A DNA stretch of 64,000 nucleotides from Corynebacterium amycolatum SK46. GTDB taxonomy: Bacteria > Actinomycetota > Actinomycetes > Mycobacteriales > Mycobacteriaceae. The stretch's first letter is position 1; each line of letters begins with the position of its first letter. The DNA lies in the NCBI RefSeq assembly GCF_000173655.1, contig NZ_ABZU01000009.1, positions 1-64,000 of the forward strand, written 5' to 3'. The notes beneath the pieces were generated by a model. It was given only the letters and a program-made list of their open reading frames with translations, ran no database searches and was not told the DNA's origin. Shown piece by piece: positions 18,353 to 26,632 of the stretch. Both the position numbers and the translations under genes were made by a program.

Positions 18353-19000
18353 ATGCAGAACAAGAAGATGACCCGTATCGCTACCGCAATCGTTGGCTCC
18401 GCTACTCTTCTCGGCGGCCTGGCTGCATGTTCTTCCGATGATGCACAGGATGCTGCTAACAACGCCAAGGATCAGGCTGGCCAGGTAGCAACCGACGCCA
18501 CTGATAAGGCTGGCGACGCTAAGGACAAGGCCGGCGAGGCTGCTGATGGCGCTAAGGACAAGGCCGGCGAGGCTGCTGATGGCGCTAAGGACAAGGCTAA
18601 CGAGGCTATGAACGGTCTGGGTCTGGGCGACGCTGCTGGCGAGGATGTGGCAGAGGCTGACCTGCCTGAGTCCATCACCGAGGCAGCTTCTTCCTTCACC
18701 TCCCCGTACGGCACTGAGGCTGGCGAGTTCAAGTCCGCTAAGAAGGTCGGCGATGCAGTTGCCGCTGAATACGAGAACGTCACCTTCGTTGAGTCCCCGG
18801 AGACCAACGGTGCACAGCCGCTGATTGGTAAGATTCGCGAGACCTGGGTTGCCAACGGTGCACTGGAAAACGAGATTGGTCTGCCGACCGCTCCGGAGTC
18901 CGAGATTGAAAACGGCTGGGAGCAGCCGTTCACTAAGGACACCATGAAGTGGACCTCTGAGGACGGCCAGAACTACTCCGACTCCTACGAGAACAAGTAG
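18353..19000 (+). CDS. lipoprotein with 11-residue repeats and LGFP-like C-terminus
   Basis: The 215-residue product starts with a signal peptide ending in the lipobox LGGLAAC (Cys at about residue 26), so it should be lipid-anchored outside the membrane. Residues 35-90 are Ala/Lys/Asp/Glu repeats with an 11-residue period (AKDKAGEAADG, two perfect copies plus degenerate ones), as in amphipathic helical rods. The C-terminal 60 residues contain GALENEIGLPTAPESE...GWEQPF, resembling an LGFP repeat, a module found in corynebacterial cell-wall proteins. ATG 18353 follows GAAAGTGA. The role is probably envelope-associated. It is monocistronic with its own terminator. Confidence 0.85.
   Translation: MQNKKMTRIATAIVGSATLLGGLAACSSDDAQDAANNAKDQAGQVATDATDKAGDAKDKAGEAADGAKDKAGEAADGAKDKANEAMNGLGLGDAAGEDVAEADLPESITEAASSFTSPYGTEAGEFKSAKKVGDAVAAEYENVTFVESPETNGAQPLIGKIRETWVANGALENEIGLPTAPESEIENGWEQPFTKDTMKWTSEDGQNYSDSYENK
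18518..18616 (+). repeat. 33-bp in-frame tandem repeats inside the lipoprotein gene
   Basis: Copies at 18518-18550 and 18551-18583 are identical; a third at 18584-18616 is diverged. Each encodes 11 residues. Such arrays can change copy number by slippage. Confidence 0.85.
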
Positions 19001-19752: not shown

Positions 19753-20670
19753 TTAATTCTTATGCTTGTGTTGACGCCCAACCAGAGCGCCATACACCAG
19801 ATCCAGCGTCGGCGTTTCCACTTTCGCCTTCTGCCCCATCCGGCGGATCGCGCCAATCTGGGCATCGAGCTCATTAGCAAGCCCCGCGGTGTAGTCGCGC
19901 TGCATCGACGAGGTGTTGTCGTACCCCTGAGCATCAGTAAAGGCCAAGGTCCGCGACACGATGTCCTCTGGCAGCGCGACGCCGCAGGCTCGACCAACTG
20001 CCTCGGTTTCTTCAAACATCCGCGTCAAGCTGTCGCGCATTTCCGAACGCAAGTAACCAATCGGACTATCAGCCAGGGCACCTAGTGCACCGAGGTTGGC
20101 CACGAACATCGCTTTTGCCCAGATATCGACCCAGATATCCGGGAGCTGTTCGCCACCGAGCCCAGCCGTGAGTAATGCCTCGATAACTTCCCCGACCAGG
20201 TCATTAGTGGAGCCATCGAATGTGCCGATGTTCAGGCTCATCGGTCCTGGTCGGAAGGTGACTTCTGCCGGGCCAGTGTGGATAAAGAAACCGCGGATAA
20301 CACCCGGGAACACCTTGTCCTCACCGAACCGCCCCGCTGCCAAATAAGGGATTTCCACCGAGTTATGGGTGATCACCACTGCTGCACCAGCCGGAACTTG
20401 TGGGAAAGGATCGTTGCCCGGCAGCGCCTTGGTTGCCGCAATCACAACATCGACATCGACTCCATCGGCAGTGAGCTCACCCCAGTTGTCGGCTGCCTTG
20501 ACGGGGATAATGCTGCGTTCCCCGTGCTCGTCGATAAGCGTGAGCCCCACCTCACAAAGACGTGTCAGGGTCTCACCGCGGGCGAGAAAGACGACATCGT
20601 AACCAGCTTCAACGAGGCGACCGCCGAACCAGCCTCCGACGGCTCCTACACCTAAAATTCCGATCCTCAT
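19753..20670 (-). CDS. panE: 2-dehydropantoate 2-reductase (ketopantoate reductase) family
   Basis: The 305-residue protein begins with the NAD(P)-binding Rossmann motif GILGVGAVGGWFGGRL and has the ApbA/PanE C-terminal helical domain with KAMFVANLGALGAL, a conserved lysine and asparagine region, and the SSMQRDYTAGLANELDAQIG signature. It would reduce ketopantoate to pantoate using NADPH for coenzyme A synthesis; panB is in the same window at 41.4 kb. Other family members act on different 2-keto acids, so the substrate is likely but not certain. ATG 20670 follows AAGGTGG; the GTG at 20679 lies inside that ribosome site. Confidence 0.85.
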   Translation of the reverse strand: MRIGILGVGAVGGWFGGRLVEAGYDVVFLARGETLTRLCEVGLTLIDEHGERSIIPVKAADNWGELTADGVDVDVVIAATKALPGNDPFPQVPAGAAVVITHNSVEIPYLAAGRFGEDKVFPGVIRGFFIHTGPAEVTFRPGPMSLNIGTFDGSTNDLVGEVIEALLTAGLGGEQLPDIWVDIWAKAMFVANLGALGALADSPIGYLRSEMRDSLTRMFEETEAVGRACGVALPEDIVSRTLAFTDAQGYDNTSSMQRDYTAGLANELDAQIGAIRRMGQKAKVETPTLDLVYGALVGRQHKHKN

Positions 20671-20832
20671 AGCTGCCACCTTACGGCTTCCGCACTGCGC
20701 GCGAAGTAGGTTGCATGCGGTTGTCCACAGGCAATCCGGGCTATCCCCAAATGTGAAAATTTGGGCTTGAATTACTGCCTTGTCAAAACTATGTAAAGCG
20801 GAGTAGGGTCGAAGTCAATAGATATCAACCCA

Positions 20833-20860
20833 GGGTTGTTACTCTTTCGAGGCAAGACCT
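20833..20860 (+). promoter_or_regulatory. ribonucleic antiterminator (RAT) for BglG/LicT-type regulator
   Basis: The stretch GGGTTGTTACTC at 20833-20844, then TTTCGAGGCAAGACCT to 20860, matches the RAT consensus (GGATTGTTACTG...GGCAAAACC). Its last six bases (AGACCT) are also the first arm of the terminator that follows, so RAT folding excludes termination. Confidence 0.85.
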
Positions 20861-20895
20861 GAGGCCCACATTTCGTGGTGCCTCGGGTCTTTTTT
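20855..20895 (+). terminator. attenuator terminator in the PTS leader
   Basis: Arm 20855-20865 (AGACCTGAGGC) pairs with 20880-20890 (one G-U pair) and is followed by TTTTT, ending the leader before the EIIBCA gene unless the RAT is stabilised. Confidence 0.9.
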
Positions 20896-20933
20896 GCGTT
20901 TAACGGCCCTGTCTACCGTGAAAGAAGGTCACG

Positions 20934-23045
20934 ATGGGATCATCAAAAGATTCCAGCGCGAGGTCAATAGTTGAAAACCTCGGTGGGCCAGGGAACATCA
21001 CCAGTCTGACGCACTGTGCGACGCGTCTGCGCTTTGAACTCGGTGATGTCTCCAAGATCAACGAGGACAAAATTGACAAGGTGCCGGGCGTGCTCGGCGT
21101 CGTTCACCAGGGCGATAACCGCTACCAGGTCATCTGTGGCGGTGGCGTCGAATCGATGTACACGGCAATTAAGCACCTACCGGAAATGAAGGGTGCCGGC
21201 GCAGTCGCCACTAAGTCCGACGCAGATGTAAAGGAAGAAGCCCGTTCAAAGGCACGCGGCAAGTACGCGTGGATGGACAACTTCTTCGAGTACCTCTCGG
21301 ATTCGTTCCGTCCAATCCTGGGCGTGCTGCTCGGCGCATCACTGATTATCGCTATTGCCGCGGTTCTCGACGGCCTCAACATCGTCGACTTCCGCGCTGA
21401 GGATAAGTCCGCCACCTGGGTTTTCGTCGATGCCATGTGGCGCAGCGTCTTCTACTTCCTGCCAATCATGGTCGCCTACAACGCAGCGAAGAAGCTGCAG
21501 GTAGATCCGTGGCTGGGCGCAGCCATCATGACTGCTCTAATGACGCCGGAGTTTATGAGTCTGCAGGATACCGAGCGCTTCTCGGACACTATCAAGACAG
21601 TCAACGAGGAACTCGGTACCGAAAACTTCACCGCCAACATCTTCGGTCTGCCAATGCAGCTCAATGATTACGGCGGACAGGTCTTCGTACCACTAATCAT
21701 GGTGGCCATCCTGGCAGTGGTTTACCACGGTTTGAAGAAGATCTTCCCGGAGAATGTTCAGATGGTCTTCGTACCGTTTATCTCCATGCTGATTATGATT
21801 CCGCTGACCGCCTTCCTCATCGGCCCACTGGGCATCTGGCTTGGTAACGGCATCGGCTCCGGTCTGGCATGGATGAACTCGAACGCACCGTTCGTGTTCG
21901 CAATTCTGATCCCGATGCTCTACCCGTTCCTCGTACCGCTTGGCCTGCACTGGCCACTGAATGCGCTGATGCTGGTCAATATCCAGACTCTCGGCTACGA
22001 CTTCATCCAAGGCCCGATGGGTGCCTGGAACTTCGCCTGCTTCGGAGCAACTGCCGGTGTGCTGGTTCTTTCCATGCGCGACCACGACACTCAGATGCGC
22101 CAAACTGCAACGGGTGCACTCGCTGCCGGTCTCTTCGGTGGTATCTCCGAGCCGTCCCTCTACGGTATTCACCTGCGCTTTAAGAGGATCTACCCACGCA
22201 TGCTGCTCGGTTGTTTCGCCGGCGGTCTGACCATCGCCATCCTCTCCGCCCCGTACGGTGGCGTGACAACCAACGCCTTCGTCTTCACCTCCCTGATCAC
22301 CACCGTCGTGTTCAAGCCGATGTGGGTCTACCTAATCTCCATCGCTGTGGCGTTCTTCGTTGCCATGTTCGCCATCATTCTCACCGACTACCGCACGCCG
22401 GAAGAGAAGGCGGAGGCCGCACACGCCGCAGAGCTTGACGACGAGCCCAGCGACGACACCCCGCGTGCTTCGAGCAACTCCGATTCCGCTCCGGCGGAGG
22501 CTTCCAGCGACAACGGTGCCAACGTCGAGGCTGCCGCACCGGCTGCTGTGGCTGCTGGCATCGGTGGCATCGCAACTGCCGTTGATACCAAACCTGTACA
22601 GGTTCAGGCCCCGGTTGCCGGTGAGGTTGTCAGCCTTGCCGAGGCCGGCGACGCGGTCTTTGCCTCCGGTGCTCTCGGTGACGGTGTCGGTATCAAGCCG
22701 ACCAGTTCTACCGTGGTCGCACCCGTATCGGGCACGCTGATGACTGTGGCAAAGACCGGTCACGCCTTCGGCATCAAGACCGATGACGGTGTAGAGGTAC
22801 TCGTCCACGTCGGTATCGACACTGTCAAGATGGCCGGTGAAGGCTTCGATGTCCAAGTTTCCAAGAAGCAGCACGTCGAGGCCGGCGATGTTCTTGCCGA
22901 GGTCGATTTCGACAAGGTCAAGGAAGCTGGTTACCCAACCACGACACTGATGACCATCACCAATACCAAGAAGCTGAACAAGGTCTCCCCGGTCACCGGC
23001 ATCTCCGTCCAAGCCGGCGACATGGTCATCGAAGTTCAGCCATAA
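20934..23045 (+). CDS. PTS sugar transporter EIIBCA, glucose/beta-glucoside type
   Basis: The 703-residue membrane permease imports and phosphorylates a sugar. Order: EIIB (residues 1-80, phosphorylated Cys28 in LTHCATRLRF), EIIC with about ten helices (110-490, including GGISEPSLYGIH), a Ser/Ala/Asp-rich linker (500-550), and EIIA (560-703, active His near 625 in VLVHVGIDTVKM). BCA order and the antiterminator control are typical of the sucrose/beta-glucoside group, though glucose permeases of corynebacteria share it. The sugar cannot be decided. ATG 20934 has GAAGG six bases before it. It is the first gene of a PTS operon with the antiterminator-HPr and EI genes. Confidence 0.92.
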   Translation: MGSSKDSSARSIVENLGGPGNITSLTHCATRLRFELGDVSKINEDKIDKVPGVLGVVHQGDNRYQVICGGGVESMYTAIKHLPEMKGAGAVATKSDADVKEEARSKARGKYAWMDNFFEYLSDSFRPILGVLLGASLIIAIAAVLDGLNIVDFRAEDKSATWVFVDAMWRSVFYFLPIMVAYNAAKKLQVDPWLGAAIMTALMTPEFMSLQDTERFSDTIKTVNEELGTENFTANIFGLPMQLNDYGGQVFVPLIMVAILAVVYHGLKKIFPENVQMVFVPFISMLIMIPLTAFLIGPLGIWLGNGIGSGLAWMNSNAPFVFAILIPMLYPFLVPLGLHWPLNALMLVNIQTLGYDFIQGPMGAWNFACFGATAGVLVLSMRDHDTQMRQTATGALAAGLFGGISEPSLYGIHLRFKRIYPRMLLGCFAGGLTIAILSAPYGGVTTNAFVFTSLITTVVFKPMWVYLISIAVAFFVAMFAIILTDYRTPEEKAEAAHAAELDDEPSDDTPRASSNSDSAPAEASSDNGANVEAAAPAAVAAGIGGIATAVDTKPVQVQAPVAGEVVSLAEAGDAVFASGALGDGVGIKPTSSTVVAPVSGTLMTVAKTGHAFGIKTDDGVEVLVHVGIDTVKMAGEGFDVQVSKKQHVEAGDVLAEVDFDKVKEAGYPTTTLMTITNTKKLNKVSPVTGISVQAGDMVIEVQP

Positions 23046-23110
23046 TTGATTTCTAGAAGGCATACCGGCCTGAAATCCCTCAACTTATGGAGGAGTTCAC
23101 GGTTACCGAC

Positions 23111-24385
23111 ATGGAAATCCTGAGAGTATTCAATAACAACGTGGTCCTGGCCAAGGACGCTACCGGTGAAAAAATCCTCACCGGCCGCGGCATTGGCTTC
23201 AAGGCCCGCCCGGGACAGTCGGTTGATTCGAGCAAAGTTGTTCGCGTCTTTGTCCCCGCGGAAGGCCGCGATCCGGACTATATTGCCACGATGCTCACAG
23301 AAATTCCGCTGGCTCACATCACCCTTGTGACCGATGCGGTAACCGCAGCCGGCCTGCCGGAATCAATGACGAAGAACGCTTCCCTCCTTGTGGCGTTGGC
23401 CGATCACATTGGTTTCGCCATCATGAGGGCAGCTAACGGGCAGCGCGCCGATTACCCACTGCTCGCAGAAGTCAGCCAACTTTATAGTGAAGAATACGCG
23501 CAGGCGCAGGCAATTTTGTCGTATATCAATCGCGCCCTCAATGACCGTCGTATAGCGCCATTACCCCGCTCAGAAGCGGTGGCGATTACGTTACACCTGG
23601 TCAATGCCGGTTTTTCCACGGGTGATTTGAGCTTCACCTACACCATGACAGGCATGCTGCAGCAGCTGCTCGCAATCATTGAAAGTGATTTTGGCATCGC
23701 ACTGGAGCCAGAGACTGTCAATGTGGGGCGCTTCATCACGCACCTGCGCTACCTGTTCGTCCGGATCGCCAAGCATGAGCAGTTGAAAGATCACTCCTCC
23801 GCTATTGGCCGGGCTATCCGTGACTCCGCCCCAGAGGCGTTTCGCTGCGCACAGCGCATCTCCGCAGTCATTGAACTGCGTCTGGGGGCGGGGTTGACGG
23901 AAGACGAAGTTTCCTACCTCACCCTGCACATTGCACGCATCGTGCAGGCAGCGGCTGTATCTCCCACCGCCTCCAGGGCTTCCCGGAGCGTGCGCGACGT
24001 TGATGCTAAGCAAGCACCAACGAGCGATGCACCAGCGGGCGGCGCACCCGCGGTGGGGTGTACAGGCACTGTGCCTGAGTCAGAAAATTTCACATATTCG
24101 ACCCGAAAGGATTCAACCATGATTACTCGTACCGCTACCATCGGTTCCTCCGTAGGCCTGCACGCTCGCCCGGCTTCCCTGTTCACTCAGGCTGCCGCTG
24201 AGTACGACTACGACATTGTCATTTCCCTTGACGACGAAGAGGCCGATGCCGCTTCGATTCTGGAGGTCATGACTCTCGGCGCTAAGCATGGTGACGAAGT
24301 TACGCTCAGCTGCGAGGACGACTCCGCGACTGCAGCTCTGGACGAGCTTGCTGCGATGCTCGAGCGCGACCTGGATGCCGAGTAA
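23111..24385 (+). CDS. BglG/LicT-type transcriptional antiterminator fused in frame to HPr
   Basis: The protein (about 424 residues) has an RNA-binding CAT domain (MEILRVFNNNVVLAKD), PRD1 (about 60-165) and PRD2 (about 170-280), with the four PRD histidines present in ADHIGF, TLHLVN, ITHLRY and TLHIAR. A proline/alanine-rich linker (about 285-335) leads without a stop into a complete HPr domain (last 88 residues). It should bind the RAT at 20833-20860 and be controlled by phosphorylation of the PRDs by EIIB and HPr. The start is uncertain: ATG 23111 fits the family; GGAGGAG lies 15 bases upstream; ATG 23087 is in frame without a ribosome site. Fusion of antiterminator and HPr is unusual. Confidence 0.85.
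   Translation: MEILRVFNNNVVLAKDATGEKILTGRGIGFKARPGQSVDSSKVVRVFVPAEGRDPDYIATMLTEIPLAHITLVTDAVTAAGLPESMTKNASLLVALADHIGFAIMRAANGQRADYPLLAEVSQLYSEEYAQAQAILSYINRALNDRRIAPLPRSEAVAITLHLVNAGFSTGDLSFTYTMTGMLQQLLAIIESDFGIALEPETVNVGRFITHLRYLFVRIAKHEQLKDHSSAIGRAIRDSAPEAFRCAQRISAVIELRLGAGLTEDEVSYLTLHIARIVQAAAVSPTASRASRSVRDVDAKQAPTSDAPAGGAPAVGCTGTVPESENFTYSTRKDSTMITRTATIGSSVGLHARPASLFTQAAAEYDYDIVISLDDEEADAASILEVMTLGAKHGDEVTLSCEDDSATAALDELAAMLERDLDAE
24119..24385 (+). CDS. ptsH: HPr phosphocarrier, internal start within the fusion
   Basis: ATG 24119 is in frame with the antiterminator and has GAAAGGA seven bases before it. From here the 88-residue product is a normal-length HPr with active histidine in GLHARPAS and a SILEVMTLGAKHGDEV block. 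Free HPr could therefore be made from the same mRNA as well as the fused form. EI, which phosphorylates it, is the next gene. Confidence 0.75.
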   Translation: MITRTATIGSSVGLHARPASLFTQAAAEYDYDIVISLDDEEADAASILEVMTLGAKHGDEVTLSCEDDSATAALDELAAMLERDLDAE

Positions 24386-24473
24386 GCCCAGCTAAAACAC
24401 TCCTGGATAACACCACGGCACACCACGCCCGACGAGTATCCCCGCAGAGGTCCCGAAAAGGAGATCGGAAGCA

Positions 24474-26165
24474 ATGAACGAGCAGCACACTGTCATCTAT
24501 GGCATCGGTGTCTCGACCGGTACGGCCAGCGCTGAAGTAGTAAAGGTACTCCCCGCTCCGGGAGTTGATACCAAAGAGCCGTCGTCGACCGATCCTGTCG
24601 CCGATGGTGAGCGTGTCCGCGAAGCGATGGCCAACGTCGCAGAGTCGCTGAAGAAGCAGGCTGAGCACTCCAGCCCGAAGGCACGTCCGATTCTGGAGGC
24701 CACCGCGCAACTGGCTTCCGATAGGGCGCTCGCCAAGGCTGTGGTGAAGAAACTCAAGGCGGGCTCCGGTGTCACCCAGGCCGTTCACGATGCCGTTGAG
24801 GACTACGCGCAGCTCCTTGCAAGTCTCGGTGGCTACATGGCTGAACGTGTAACCGACCTCTACGATGTTCGCGACCGCACGATTTGCGAGCTGCGTGGCC
24901 TGCCAAAACCGGGCGTCCCGGATGTCACCACCCCAACTATCCTGCTTGCCGACGATCTCGCGCCCGCCGAAACCGTGGGTCTTGACCCCGAGTTGGTCGT
25001 AGGCATCGCCACCGCTGGTGGCGGGCCGACCAGCCACACGGCTATCCTCGCAGCACAGCTGGGCATTCCGGCCGTCGTTAAGGCGAAGGGCGTCATGGAA
25101 CTTGGGGCCGGTACCTTTGTCGCCATTGACGGTGGCGCCGGTGAGGTGATTGCGAATCCGACCGCCGATGAGGTCGCCGAGTTGGAAGAGCGCGCTCGAC
25201 GCCGGGAAGCTGCCCTGTCGCAGTCTGTGGGCGCAGGCAAGACCGCTGATGGTTACCCGGTGAATCTGCTGGCCAACATTGGTACGGCGGAAGATGGTGA
25301 GTCTGCGGCAGCGCAGGATAATGAGGGCACCGGCCTGTTCCGTACTGAGTTCCTTTTCCTCGACCGAGACAAGGCTCCGAGTTTGGAGGAACAAACGGAA
25401 ACCTACACTCGTGTGCTGAAGGCATTCGGTGAGCGACGGGTGGTTGTGCGCACACTGGATGCGGGTGCGGATAAGCCGCTGAGCTTTGCCGACCTAGGCG
25501 AGGAAGAAAACCCGGCGCTGGGTCGCCGCGGACTGCGTCTGTCGCAGGCTCGGGAAGATTTGCTGGATACGCAGCTGGATGCACTCGCCGCTGCATTTGA
25601 CGCCACCGGCCGCAAGGCTGACCTGCGGGTTATGGCTCCGATGATCGCAACGGTCGAAGAAACAAAGTGGTTTGCGGACAAGGCACGGGAGCGTGGTCTG
25701 CCGAAGGTCGGCATCATGATTGAGGTCCCCGCAGCAGCAATTCGCGCGAAGCAGCTGCTGTCCATTGTGGACTTTGCCTCCATTGGTACTAACGACTTGT
25801 CGCAGTACACTATGGCGGCCGACCGTATGCAGGGGGCTCTGGCGGATCTGCTTTCCCCGTGGCAACCAGCGGTACTGCAAATGATTAAGTCCGCATGCAA
25901 GGGCGGCAATGCTACCGGCAAGCCCATTAGTGTCTGCGGTGAAGCCGGCGGTGACCCGCTGCTGGCACTGGTCCTGGTGGGCCTCGGCGTGAGCTCGCTG
26001 TCCATGGCTTCCAAGAAAGTGCCGGCCGTCCGCGCCGCTCTCCGCCTCCACGACCGCGCTACCTGCCAGCAGATGGCAGCATACGCTGTCGATGCCGAAA
26101 CTGCGGCCGATGCGAAGGCCGCAGTGACCGCGCTGGTGGATCCGAAGGTGAAGGATCTGCTGTAG
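24474..26165 (+). CDS. ptsI: PTS enzyme I (phosphoenolpyruvate-protein phosphotransferase)
   Basis: EI takes phosphate from phosphoenolpyruvate and passes it to HPr. The 563-residue protein has the N-terminal HPr-binding helices, the phosphohistidine site GGGPTSHTAILAAQLGIP (His near residue 189), and the PEP-binding C-terminal barrel with GLFRTEFLF, LGRRGLRLSQAREDL, MIEVPAAA, SIGTNDLSQY and CGEAGGDPL. ATG 24474 follows AAAGGAGAT. Together with the two preceding genes it completes a sugar phosphorelay in one cluster. A terminator follows. Confidence 0.96.
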   Translation: MNEQHTVIYGIGVSTGTASAEVVKVLPAPGVDTKEPSSTDPVADGERVREAMANVAESLKKQAEHSSPKARPILEATAQLASDRALAKAVVKKLKAGSGVTQAVHDAVEDYAQLLASLGGYMAERVTDLYDVRDRTICELRGLPKPGVPDVTTPTILLADDLAPAETVGLDPELVVGIATAGGGPTSHTAILAAQLGIPAVVKAKGVMELGAGTFVAIDGGAGEVIANPTADEVAELEERARRREAALSQSVGAGKTADGYPVNLLANIGTAEDGESAAAQDNEGTGLFRTEFLFLDRDKAPSLEEQTETYTRVLKAFGERRVVVRTLDAGADKPLSFADLGEEENPALGRRGLRLSQAREDLLDTQLDALAAAFDATGRKADLRVMAPMIATVEETKWFADKARERGLPKVGIMIEVPAAAIRAKQLLSIVDFASIGTNDLSQYTMAADRMQGALADLLSPWQPAVLQMIKSACKGGNATGKPISVCGEAGGDPLLALVLVGLGVSSLSMASKKVPAVRAALRLHDRATCQQMAAYAVDAETAADAKAAVTALVDPKVKDLL

Positions 26166-26632
26166 AGCGACGGAATTAGTACTAAGCCTGGCGTACACAC
26201 GCAGTCAGCGTAAATGTGTGTGCCAGGCTCTTTCTCTTTTGTTCGCTGCCCCATTCCAGGCAGCAAACTTTCTGGGAATTTTCTTGATTTTCCCTCTCTC
26301 GAACGCCCCATTAGGATAAATAGAGTGCCTTCGTCAGCACCACCAACGCCGTCGAAGCCCCTTAATAATTCAAATAAAGACGGCTCATACAAGCCGCAAC
26401 TCAATTCACGCATCAGGCTCCACCCAGCCCGTGAAAATTCACAATTTCACATTAAAAGTGTCAGTTTTCGACATCGTGGCCCTTCATCTACAGGGGCACG
26501 CGAACTGCAATTGGGCTGCTGTAACGGGCGTTTGCGCCACCACAGCACCGGCAACAACGGCGTCGCCACAGCAGCATGCAGCATCGCCCTTGACCTTACG
26601 GGCGACACTAATTTAGAAAGAACACAATTCTC
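26166..26632 (+). other. 467-bp region between ptsI and brnQ
   Basis: It contains the ptsI terminator, a TAGGAT promoter element (26312-26317), an open frame running into brnQ, an imperfect palindrome GTGAAAATTCAC at 26431-26442, and a hairpin TCGCCC/GGGCGA at 26584-26605 just before brnQ. Confidence 0.5.
26185..26240 (+). terminator. Rho-independent terminator of the PTS operon
   Basis: AGCCTGGC with ACACAC pairs with GTGTGTGCCAGGCT across a loop, ending at 26229, followed by a CTTTCTCTTTT tail. Confidence 0.85.

Follow-up and report, generated by a model that had tools for sequence, protein, structure and literature searches.

How does an antiterminator come to carry HPr in the same polypeptide, and what might HPr do there? 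PRD regulators are the textbook example of regulation through phosphate from free HPr and EIIB. In the stretch of DNA analysed here (the window, 64,000 nucleotides of Corynebacterium amycolatum SK46), a BglG-type regulator runs directly into HPr in one reading frame (23111..24385, + strand). A preliminary description of the locus had proposed that the regulator and a complete 88-residue HPr share a stop-free frame; its coordinates prove exact, and translation of the window gives 424 residues plus a stop codon, with zero internal stops and with the domains confirmed by Pfam. The same arrangement is conserved in 14 genomes.

The protein begins with a CAT RNA-binding domain (residues 1–49, 23111..23257; Pfam PF03123, 62 bits against a cut-off of 25), followed by PRD1 (approximately residues 67–167, 23309..23611, limits set from the helices of the structure model), which contains His 99 and His 162, and PRD2 (residues 184–276, 23660..23938, the best Pfam PF00874 stretch), which contains His 211 and His 273. 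A linker that is predicted to be disordered (residues 284–336, 23960..24118) then leads into the HPr domain, which is also a potential nested 88-residue gene (24119..24385). PF00874 recognizes PRD in two stretches, HPr at residues 339–418 scores 90 bits with PF00381 (cut-off 23) and 87.3 bits with TIGR01003 (cut-off 47.9), and CAT_RBD, PRD and PTS-HPr all lie above their curated cut-offs. The active-site His of HPr is residue 351 of the fusion (24161–24163), within the motif GLHARPAS, and the equivalent of Ser46 is residue 382. Across an alignment of 12 fusions the four PRD His, the HPr His and the Ser46 equivalent are all invariant, and the HPr His is also present in the fusion of G203. Control of Ser46 by HPr kinase is of the Firmicute type and not common to all HPrs; no match to HPr kinase was found in this genome, so Firmicute-type control at Ser46 is not indicated.

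The CAT domain, the two PRDs with their conserved His and a RAT-like site over a terminator (described below) place the regulator in the BglG/LicT family on sequence features. LicT and GlcT are the top-ranking NCBIfam models for the antiterminator part, both under their equivalog cut-offs (for LicT, 216 bits versus 300), and the protein is thus not identified as LicT proper. Nor is it a multiphosphoryl transfer protein, because the chain partners of HPr are CAT and PRD domains and enzyme I is a separate gene.

We searched 242 Corynebacterium genomes with the 12-fusion alignment, following an earlier search of 201 genomes with a single protein. The in-frame fusion is present in 14 of the 242 (G000, G069, G099, G034, G153, G056, G001, G096, G120, G168, G132, G067, G203 and G241), a count that refers to matches at E ≤ 1e-40 and leaves out partial hits such as G225 (at a contig edge), G212, G155 and G236. 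A stop codon or frameshift missed in assembly has to be considered since the window comes from a 48-contig draft, but the identical frame in 13 further genomes, and single-contig assemblies in 8 of the 14 cases, reduce the chance of such an artefact to practically nil. For most remaining hits in the genus the frame from stop to stop does not exceed 351 residues, which leaves no room for the antiterminator and HPr domains together, and the sequences of those with long open frames (G113, G029, G201, G190 and G169) show no fusion. Outside the genus, no fusion was found among the matches read (E ≤ 1e-40 or 1e-30) in samples of 401 genomes from the family, 396 from the phylum and 394 from the class; these samples overlap, represent a selection of bacteria, and were read for antiterminators whose locus BLAST located, with G441 (a partial match) and G1301 (L132) left out. 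One antiterminator match in G1199 (L128) is split over two frames (20–192 and 207–282) and is perhaps a frameshifted gene; the ptsHI pair of this genome lies elsewhere.

When 45 antiterminators are placed on a tree, the 14 fused rows group together as a single clade (support 98/95). This bears on the earlier suggestion that a stop codon had been lost: the fusion and an origin of its linker from a former spacer are supported, whereas a recent event in one strain is ruled out by the tree, the fusion being old and shared by the 14-genome clade. The antiterminators of unfused relatives end just past the last PRD2 helix, within about 30 residues of the last PRD2 His. Eight unfused rows on the tree (L017, L019, L022, L029, L058, L060, L078 and L080) have enzyme I directly 3′ of the antiterminator, with no intervening HPr, and the genomes with this antiterminator–enzyme I arrangement have a single HPr, located elsewhere, in 8/8 searched (G086 among them).

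The HPr sequences give an indication of ancestry. Among the matches listed for the 201 genomes, HPrs at 66–86% identity to that of the window are all in fusions and the others reach at most 58%. Three ptsHI pairs from another actinobacterial family encode HPr and enzyme I proteins that are 57–63% and 60–66% identical, respectively, to those of the window. On a tree of the 14 fused HPrs, these three and 18 of the 21 free Corynebacterium HPrs (one from G034 and two from G132 left out), the fused and ptsHI HPrs separate from the free ones (94/100); elsewhere the tree is poorly resolved, with long branches that meet and a bootstrap that did not converge. Because the fused and ptsHI HPrs lie apart from the free Corynebacterium HPrs, an ancestor with antiterminator, ptsH and ptsI in a row, in which the spacer before ptsH turned coding, is one possible history that suits these sequences.

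How the linker has changed since then is informative. Counted from the LxLH of PRD2 to the HPr start, the 14 linkers measure 62, 57 (three times), 53, 48, 61, 25, 7 (twice), 30, 28, 21 and 17 residues. These 11 distinct lengths between 7 and 62 residues require at least 10 length changes, every one in threes and with the frame kept. Comparison of stop-codon positions across Corynebacterium had been proposed as a check, and as run here it finds the frame still open in all 14 genomes after these changes. The linkers have no stop in 530 codons; base-shuffled linkers have a mean of 15 stops, and none of 2,000 rounds was wholly clean. Reading the linkers in the +1 frame meets only 2 stops over 516 codons, compared with 24 stops in the +2 frame, indicating that GC content accounts for part of the stop-free linkers, so frame-keeping through length changes weighs more than absence of stops.

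Substitutions in close pairs tell a similar story. Raw counts were made for four equal-length pairs, of which three (L003, L004, L005) apply to the linker, the linker lengths of L007/L008 being different. In these three pairs the linker has pS of 0.072–0.145 and pN of 0.055–0.147, the antiterminator pS of 0.147–0.246 and pN of 0.013–0.019, and HPr pS of 0.121–0.257 and pN of 0. With pN/pS near 1 in the linker and strong constraint on the antiterminator and HPr, the linker looks like a tether, nearly free in sequence yet required to stay in frame. Free drift of the linker would also be expected if the attachment were passive, that is, if the attached HPr were simply the HPr of the cell, made mainly from an internal start, with the stop loss tolerated and signalling unchanged. 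Such a passive attachment is harder to reconcile with a frame that survives so many length changes and with the lack of any split version among the matches listed for the 201 genomes, where every HPr at or above 66% identity is fused.

The linker contains one conserved segment that belongs to neither domain. TACAGGC (24061..24067, + strand) is kept in 9 of 14 linkers, those of the window fusion, L003–L009 and L011, where it lies 40 or 58 bases 5′ of the HPr ATG, and its codons ACA GGC are fixed while the surrounding linker drifts. It is missing from G168, G132 and the three fusions without a conserved internal start. The segment is a possible internal promoter or binding site judging by its conservation; a promoter was tried as an explanation, but a sigma-70 scan of 20640–26600 listed two sites against 2.3 expected, neither of them at TACAGGC.

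Another conserved site lies just before HPr. The ribosome-binding site GAAAGGA (24105..24111, + strand) and the ATG at 24119 that had been noticed inside the frame are both there, 7 bases apart, and (C/G)GAAAGGA with its ATG is retained in 11 of the 14 fusions. Ten rows, several of them near-identical copies, have an Arg codon within the site, and all 10 use the rare CGA, as against 14 of 248 Arg codons elsewhere in the fusion genes; this bias indicates that bases rather than residues are conserved. In the rows with a start codon at this position (L010, L042 and L043 have none), calculated ribosome pairing at the internal site is −9.5 to −10.1, which ranks among the best 1.2–2.4% of in-frame positions in these genes. 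Before the antiterminator start it ranges from +0.5 to −9.3, the start of L012 having been set some bases past the probable one. The conserved bases and strong calculated pairing make free HPr a likely product, possibly exceeding the fusion in amount, and the potential for two products from one mRNA is upheld for the 11 fusions. The fixed ribosome-site bases, together with the amino-acid drift in the three close pairs and the ends of unfused relatives just after PRD2, also support the proposal that the linker derives from a former spacer.

An internal site that is fixed in most fusions, and is calculated to be stronger than most antiterminator starts, again fits a passive attachment, as does the reliance of two genomes on the fused copy. 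Each of the 14 genomes has one enzyme I over cut-off; HPr genes number one in two genomes, two in 11 and three in G132. G096 and G120 rely on the fused HPr as their only one, and in each the internal start is retained, which favours a nested gene for free HPr. Another HPr is present in each of the three genomes that lack the conserved internal start (G067, G203 and G241), although numbers are small, and the existence of such genomes shows that two products are not essential everywhere.

In G067 and G203 the linker is 7 residues long, and both the conserved ribosome site and the ATG are missing. Upstream there are in-frame GTG and ATG codons, among them a GTG 45 bases before HPr that is preceded by GAGG, and such GTG codons with GAGG upstream are possible weak alternative starts in G067, G203 and G241. 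The fused HPr of G067 and G203 is still constrained (pS 0.083, pN 0.010), with another HPr available in each genome. A constrained fusion kept despite a spare HPr favours a role for the attachment itself, and with this evidence we consider a purely passive attachment unlikely.

The attachment could matter without catalysis. The attached HPr might dock, block sterically or shape the dimer, while phosphate reaches the PRDs in trans from free HPr. In the AlphaFold2 model of the G067 fusion (mean pLDDT 85.7) the last PRD2 helix (264–281) passes directly into the first HPr strand (284–288), predicting little slack between the domains. In the window model residues 284–335 have pLDDT below 50 and HPr is well predicted. 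The pTM values of 0.58 (G067) and 0.47 (window) describe folded domains with low-confidence placement of HPr relative to the PRDs. Foldseek matches of the G067 model at E ≤ 0.001 are the antiterminators LicT, GlcT and SacY and structures of HPr or Crh, and no listed chain spans both parts.

G241 (L043, L083) is a variant that speaks for a non-catalytic domain. Its HPr motif is GLQARA instead of GLHARP, so that the active-site His is replaced by Gln and the attached domain of this genome cannot be a donor. It still scores 48.9 bits as HPr. The fusion has no enzyme I gene as its neighbour, the genome encoding both enzyme I and a normal HPr at other places. On the HPr tree the branch of the attached domain is very long, and this domain may be repurposed or decaying. 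G241 is one genome, however, and the His is retained in the other 13 fusions, making a non-catalytic role quite unlikely as the general explanation.

The operon around the fusion suggests how a donor function could operate. All its genes lie on the + strand, in the order RAT/terminator, EIIBCA, antiterminator–HPr and enzyme I. The leader contains the sequence GGGTTGTTACTCTTTCGAGGCAAGACCT (20833..20860), a putative antitermination site that we take to be a RAT from its likeness to the RAT consensus; a search of Rfam to E = 1 found nothing. Overlapping it is an intrinsic terminator hairpin followed by six T (20856..20895), recognized from sequence and folding; the stretch 20833–20907 folds at −35.4 kcal/mol with the hairpin, which is absent from the output of a simple terminator scan. 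The first gene encodes a PTS permease, EIIBCA, of the beta-glucoside/glucose family (20934..23045; Pfam PTS_EIIB, PTS_EIIC and PTS_EIIA_1), whose top NCBIfam model, TIGR01995, scores below its cut-off. Enzyme I (24474..26165; Pfam and TIGR01417) is the sole match in the genome, and the terminator scan lists no terminator-like site on the + strand between it and the fusion. Upstream, at 18353–19000, the window also contains a 215-residue frame with a possible lipoprotein signal and KDKAGEAADGA repeats near its start.

We compared the leaders of 12 of the 14 fused genomes (G069 and G099 left out) and four unfused relatives. The RAT/terminator element was matched by pattern in 10 of these 16 leaders, all 10 from fused genomes, and recognized by eye in the other six (two of the 12 fused and all four unfused). 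Because the element recurs in fused and unfused leaders, it is very probable that the antiterminator controls the operon in which its gene lies. The only enzyme I gene detected (24474–26165) thus sits downstream of a RAT/terminator (20833–20895), and the overall PTS capacity of the cell, with the uptake of fructose, may hinge on the antiterminator or else on an internal promoter. The second HPr of the genome, on contig C48, is 41% identical over the match to that of the window and its gene stands behind those for a DeoR-type regulator, a PfkB kinase and a fructose-type EIIA/EIIB, and therefore belongs to a fructose operon. The fructose-operon HPrs of the window genome and five close fused relatives (L036, L112, L113, L114, L117 and L119) cluster on a long branch (99/98, length 0.61) of the HPr tree with its unsettled bootstrap, which reads as if they had been freed from general duty.

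We favour a reading in which the protein is an obligate antiterminator–HPr fusion of the BglG/LicT type with a nested HPr gene, and the attached HPr is a tethered donor for the PRDs. Its probability is in our estimate roughly 55%. Initiation at ATG 23111 would give an antiterminator chain that always bears HPr, and initiation at ATG 24119 would give free HPr that serves the transporters. The antiterminator would bind the leader RAT, block the terminator and so switch on its own operon, which comprises its own gene and those for EIIBCA and enzyme I. The attached HPr would receive phosphate from the enzyme I made there, and the charged domain would donate to the PRDs of its own or the partner chain. 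In the classical scheme, as given in the available parts of PMC6148471 and PMC8560693, HPr(His~P) activates via PRD2 and the cognate permease inhibits via PRD1; with the donor attached, activation would follow enzyme I~P instead of the free HPr pool. From these features we infer synthesis of both products, transfer of phosphate from the attached HPr to the PRDs and an effect on induction.

A tethered donor is favoured because the fusion stays in frame within one clade, through all 11 linker lengths and with no break, and because the PRD and HPr His are invariant in the 12 aligned fusions. Counting against it are the related antiterminators of the genus that have no attached HPr, some with enzyme I directly behind them, the loss of the His in G241 and the low-confidence placement of HPr in the models; the partial explanation of stop-free frames by GC content weakens the argument from the frame. 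A further-reaching version of the tethered donor, which we put forward tentatively and as somewhat doubtful, is an antiterminator that charges itself: enzyme I~P would be read within the chain or dimer, forming a closed loop over the sole enzyme I detected, and an HPr of the G241 type would be purely regulatory.

On sequence evidence the architecture is real, conserved and unusual. It would provide a clade with a covalently attached donor, in which natural variants (linkers of 7–62 residues, with or without the internal start, with or without the HPr His) offer material to separate local concentration, catalysis and docking in the action of HPr on PRDs. Should both products be made, a gene for a general metabolic protein would lie nested, in frame, within a longer one. 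The sole enzyme I gene detected in the genome also appears to be under the control of the antiterminator.

No PRD–HPr fusion was found in full-text searches of a library of open papers, a scope that excludes most subscription papers and all preprints. The accessible part of PMC2405797, on the evolution of enzyme I and HPr, describes fusions of HPr with EIIA and enzyme I, and the word 'antiterminator' is absent from that part. The multiphosphoryl transfer proteins and the HPr fusions of the FPr/DhaM type likewise contain HPr within a longer chain, but its partners are transport-chain domains, EIIA and enzyme I, whereas in the window the partner is an RNA-binding regulator. The ptsHI pairs of G724, G1199 and G1227 resemble the window in having similar, adjacent HPr and enzyme I genes and differ in that HPr is a separate gene; the stretches examined beside them contain no antiterminator match. 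With the BglG/SacY/LicT-type antiterminators (LicT and GlcT of Bacillus, BglG of E. coli) the window protein shares the CAT domain, two PRDs and four His, and its operon shares the RAT-like site over a terminator and the EIIBCA gene. It differs from them in its C-terminal HPr, in scoring under the LicT and GlcT equivalog cut-offs and in an operon that also holds the only enzyme I detected in the genome. LevR, MtlR, AtxA and Mga, as presented in the available portions of PMC8560693 and PMC6148471, are likewise PRD regulators with a PTS-derived domain, but what they carry in addition resembles EIIA or EIIB and accepts phosphate, whereas the extra domain of the window protein is HPr, the putative donor.
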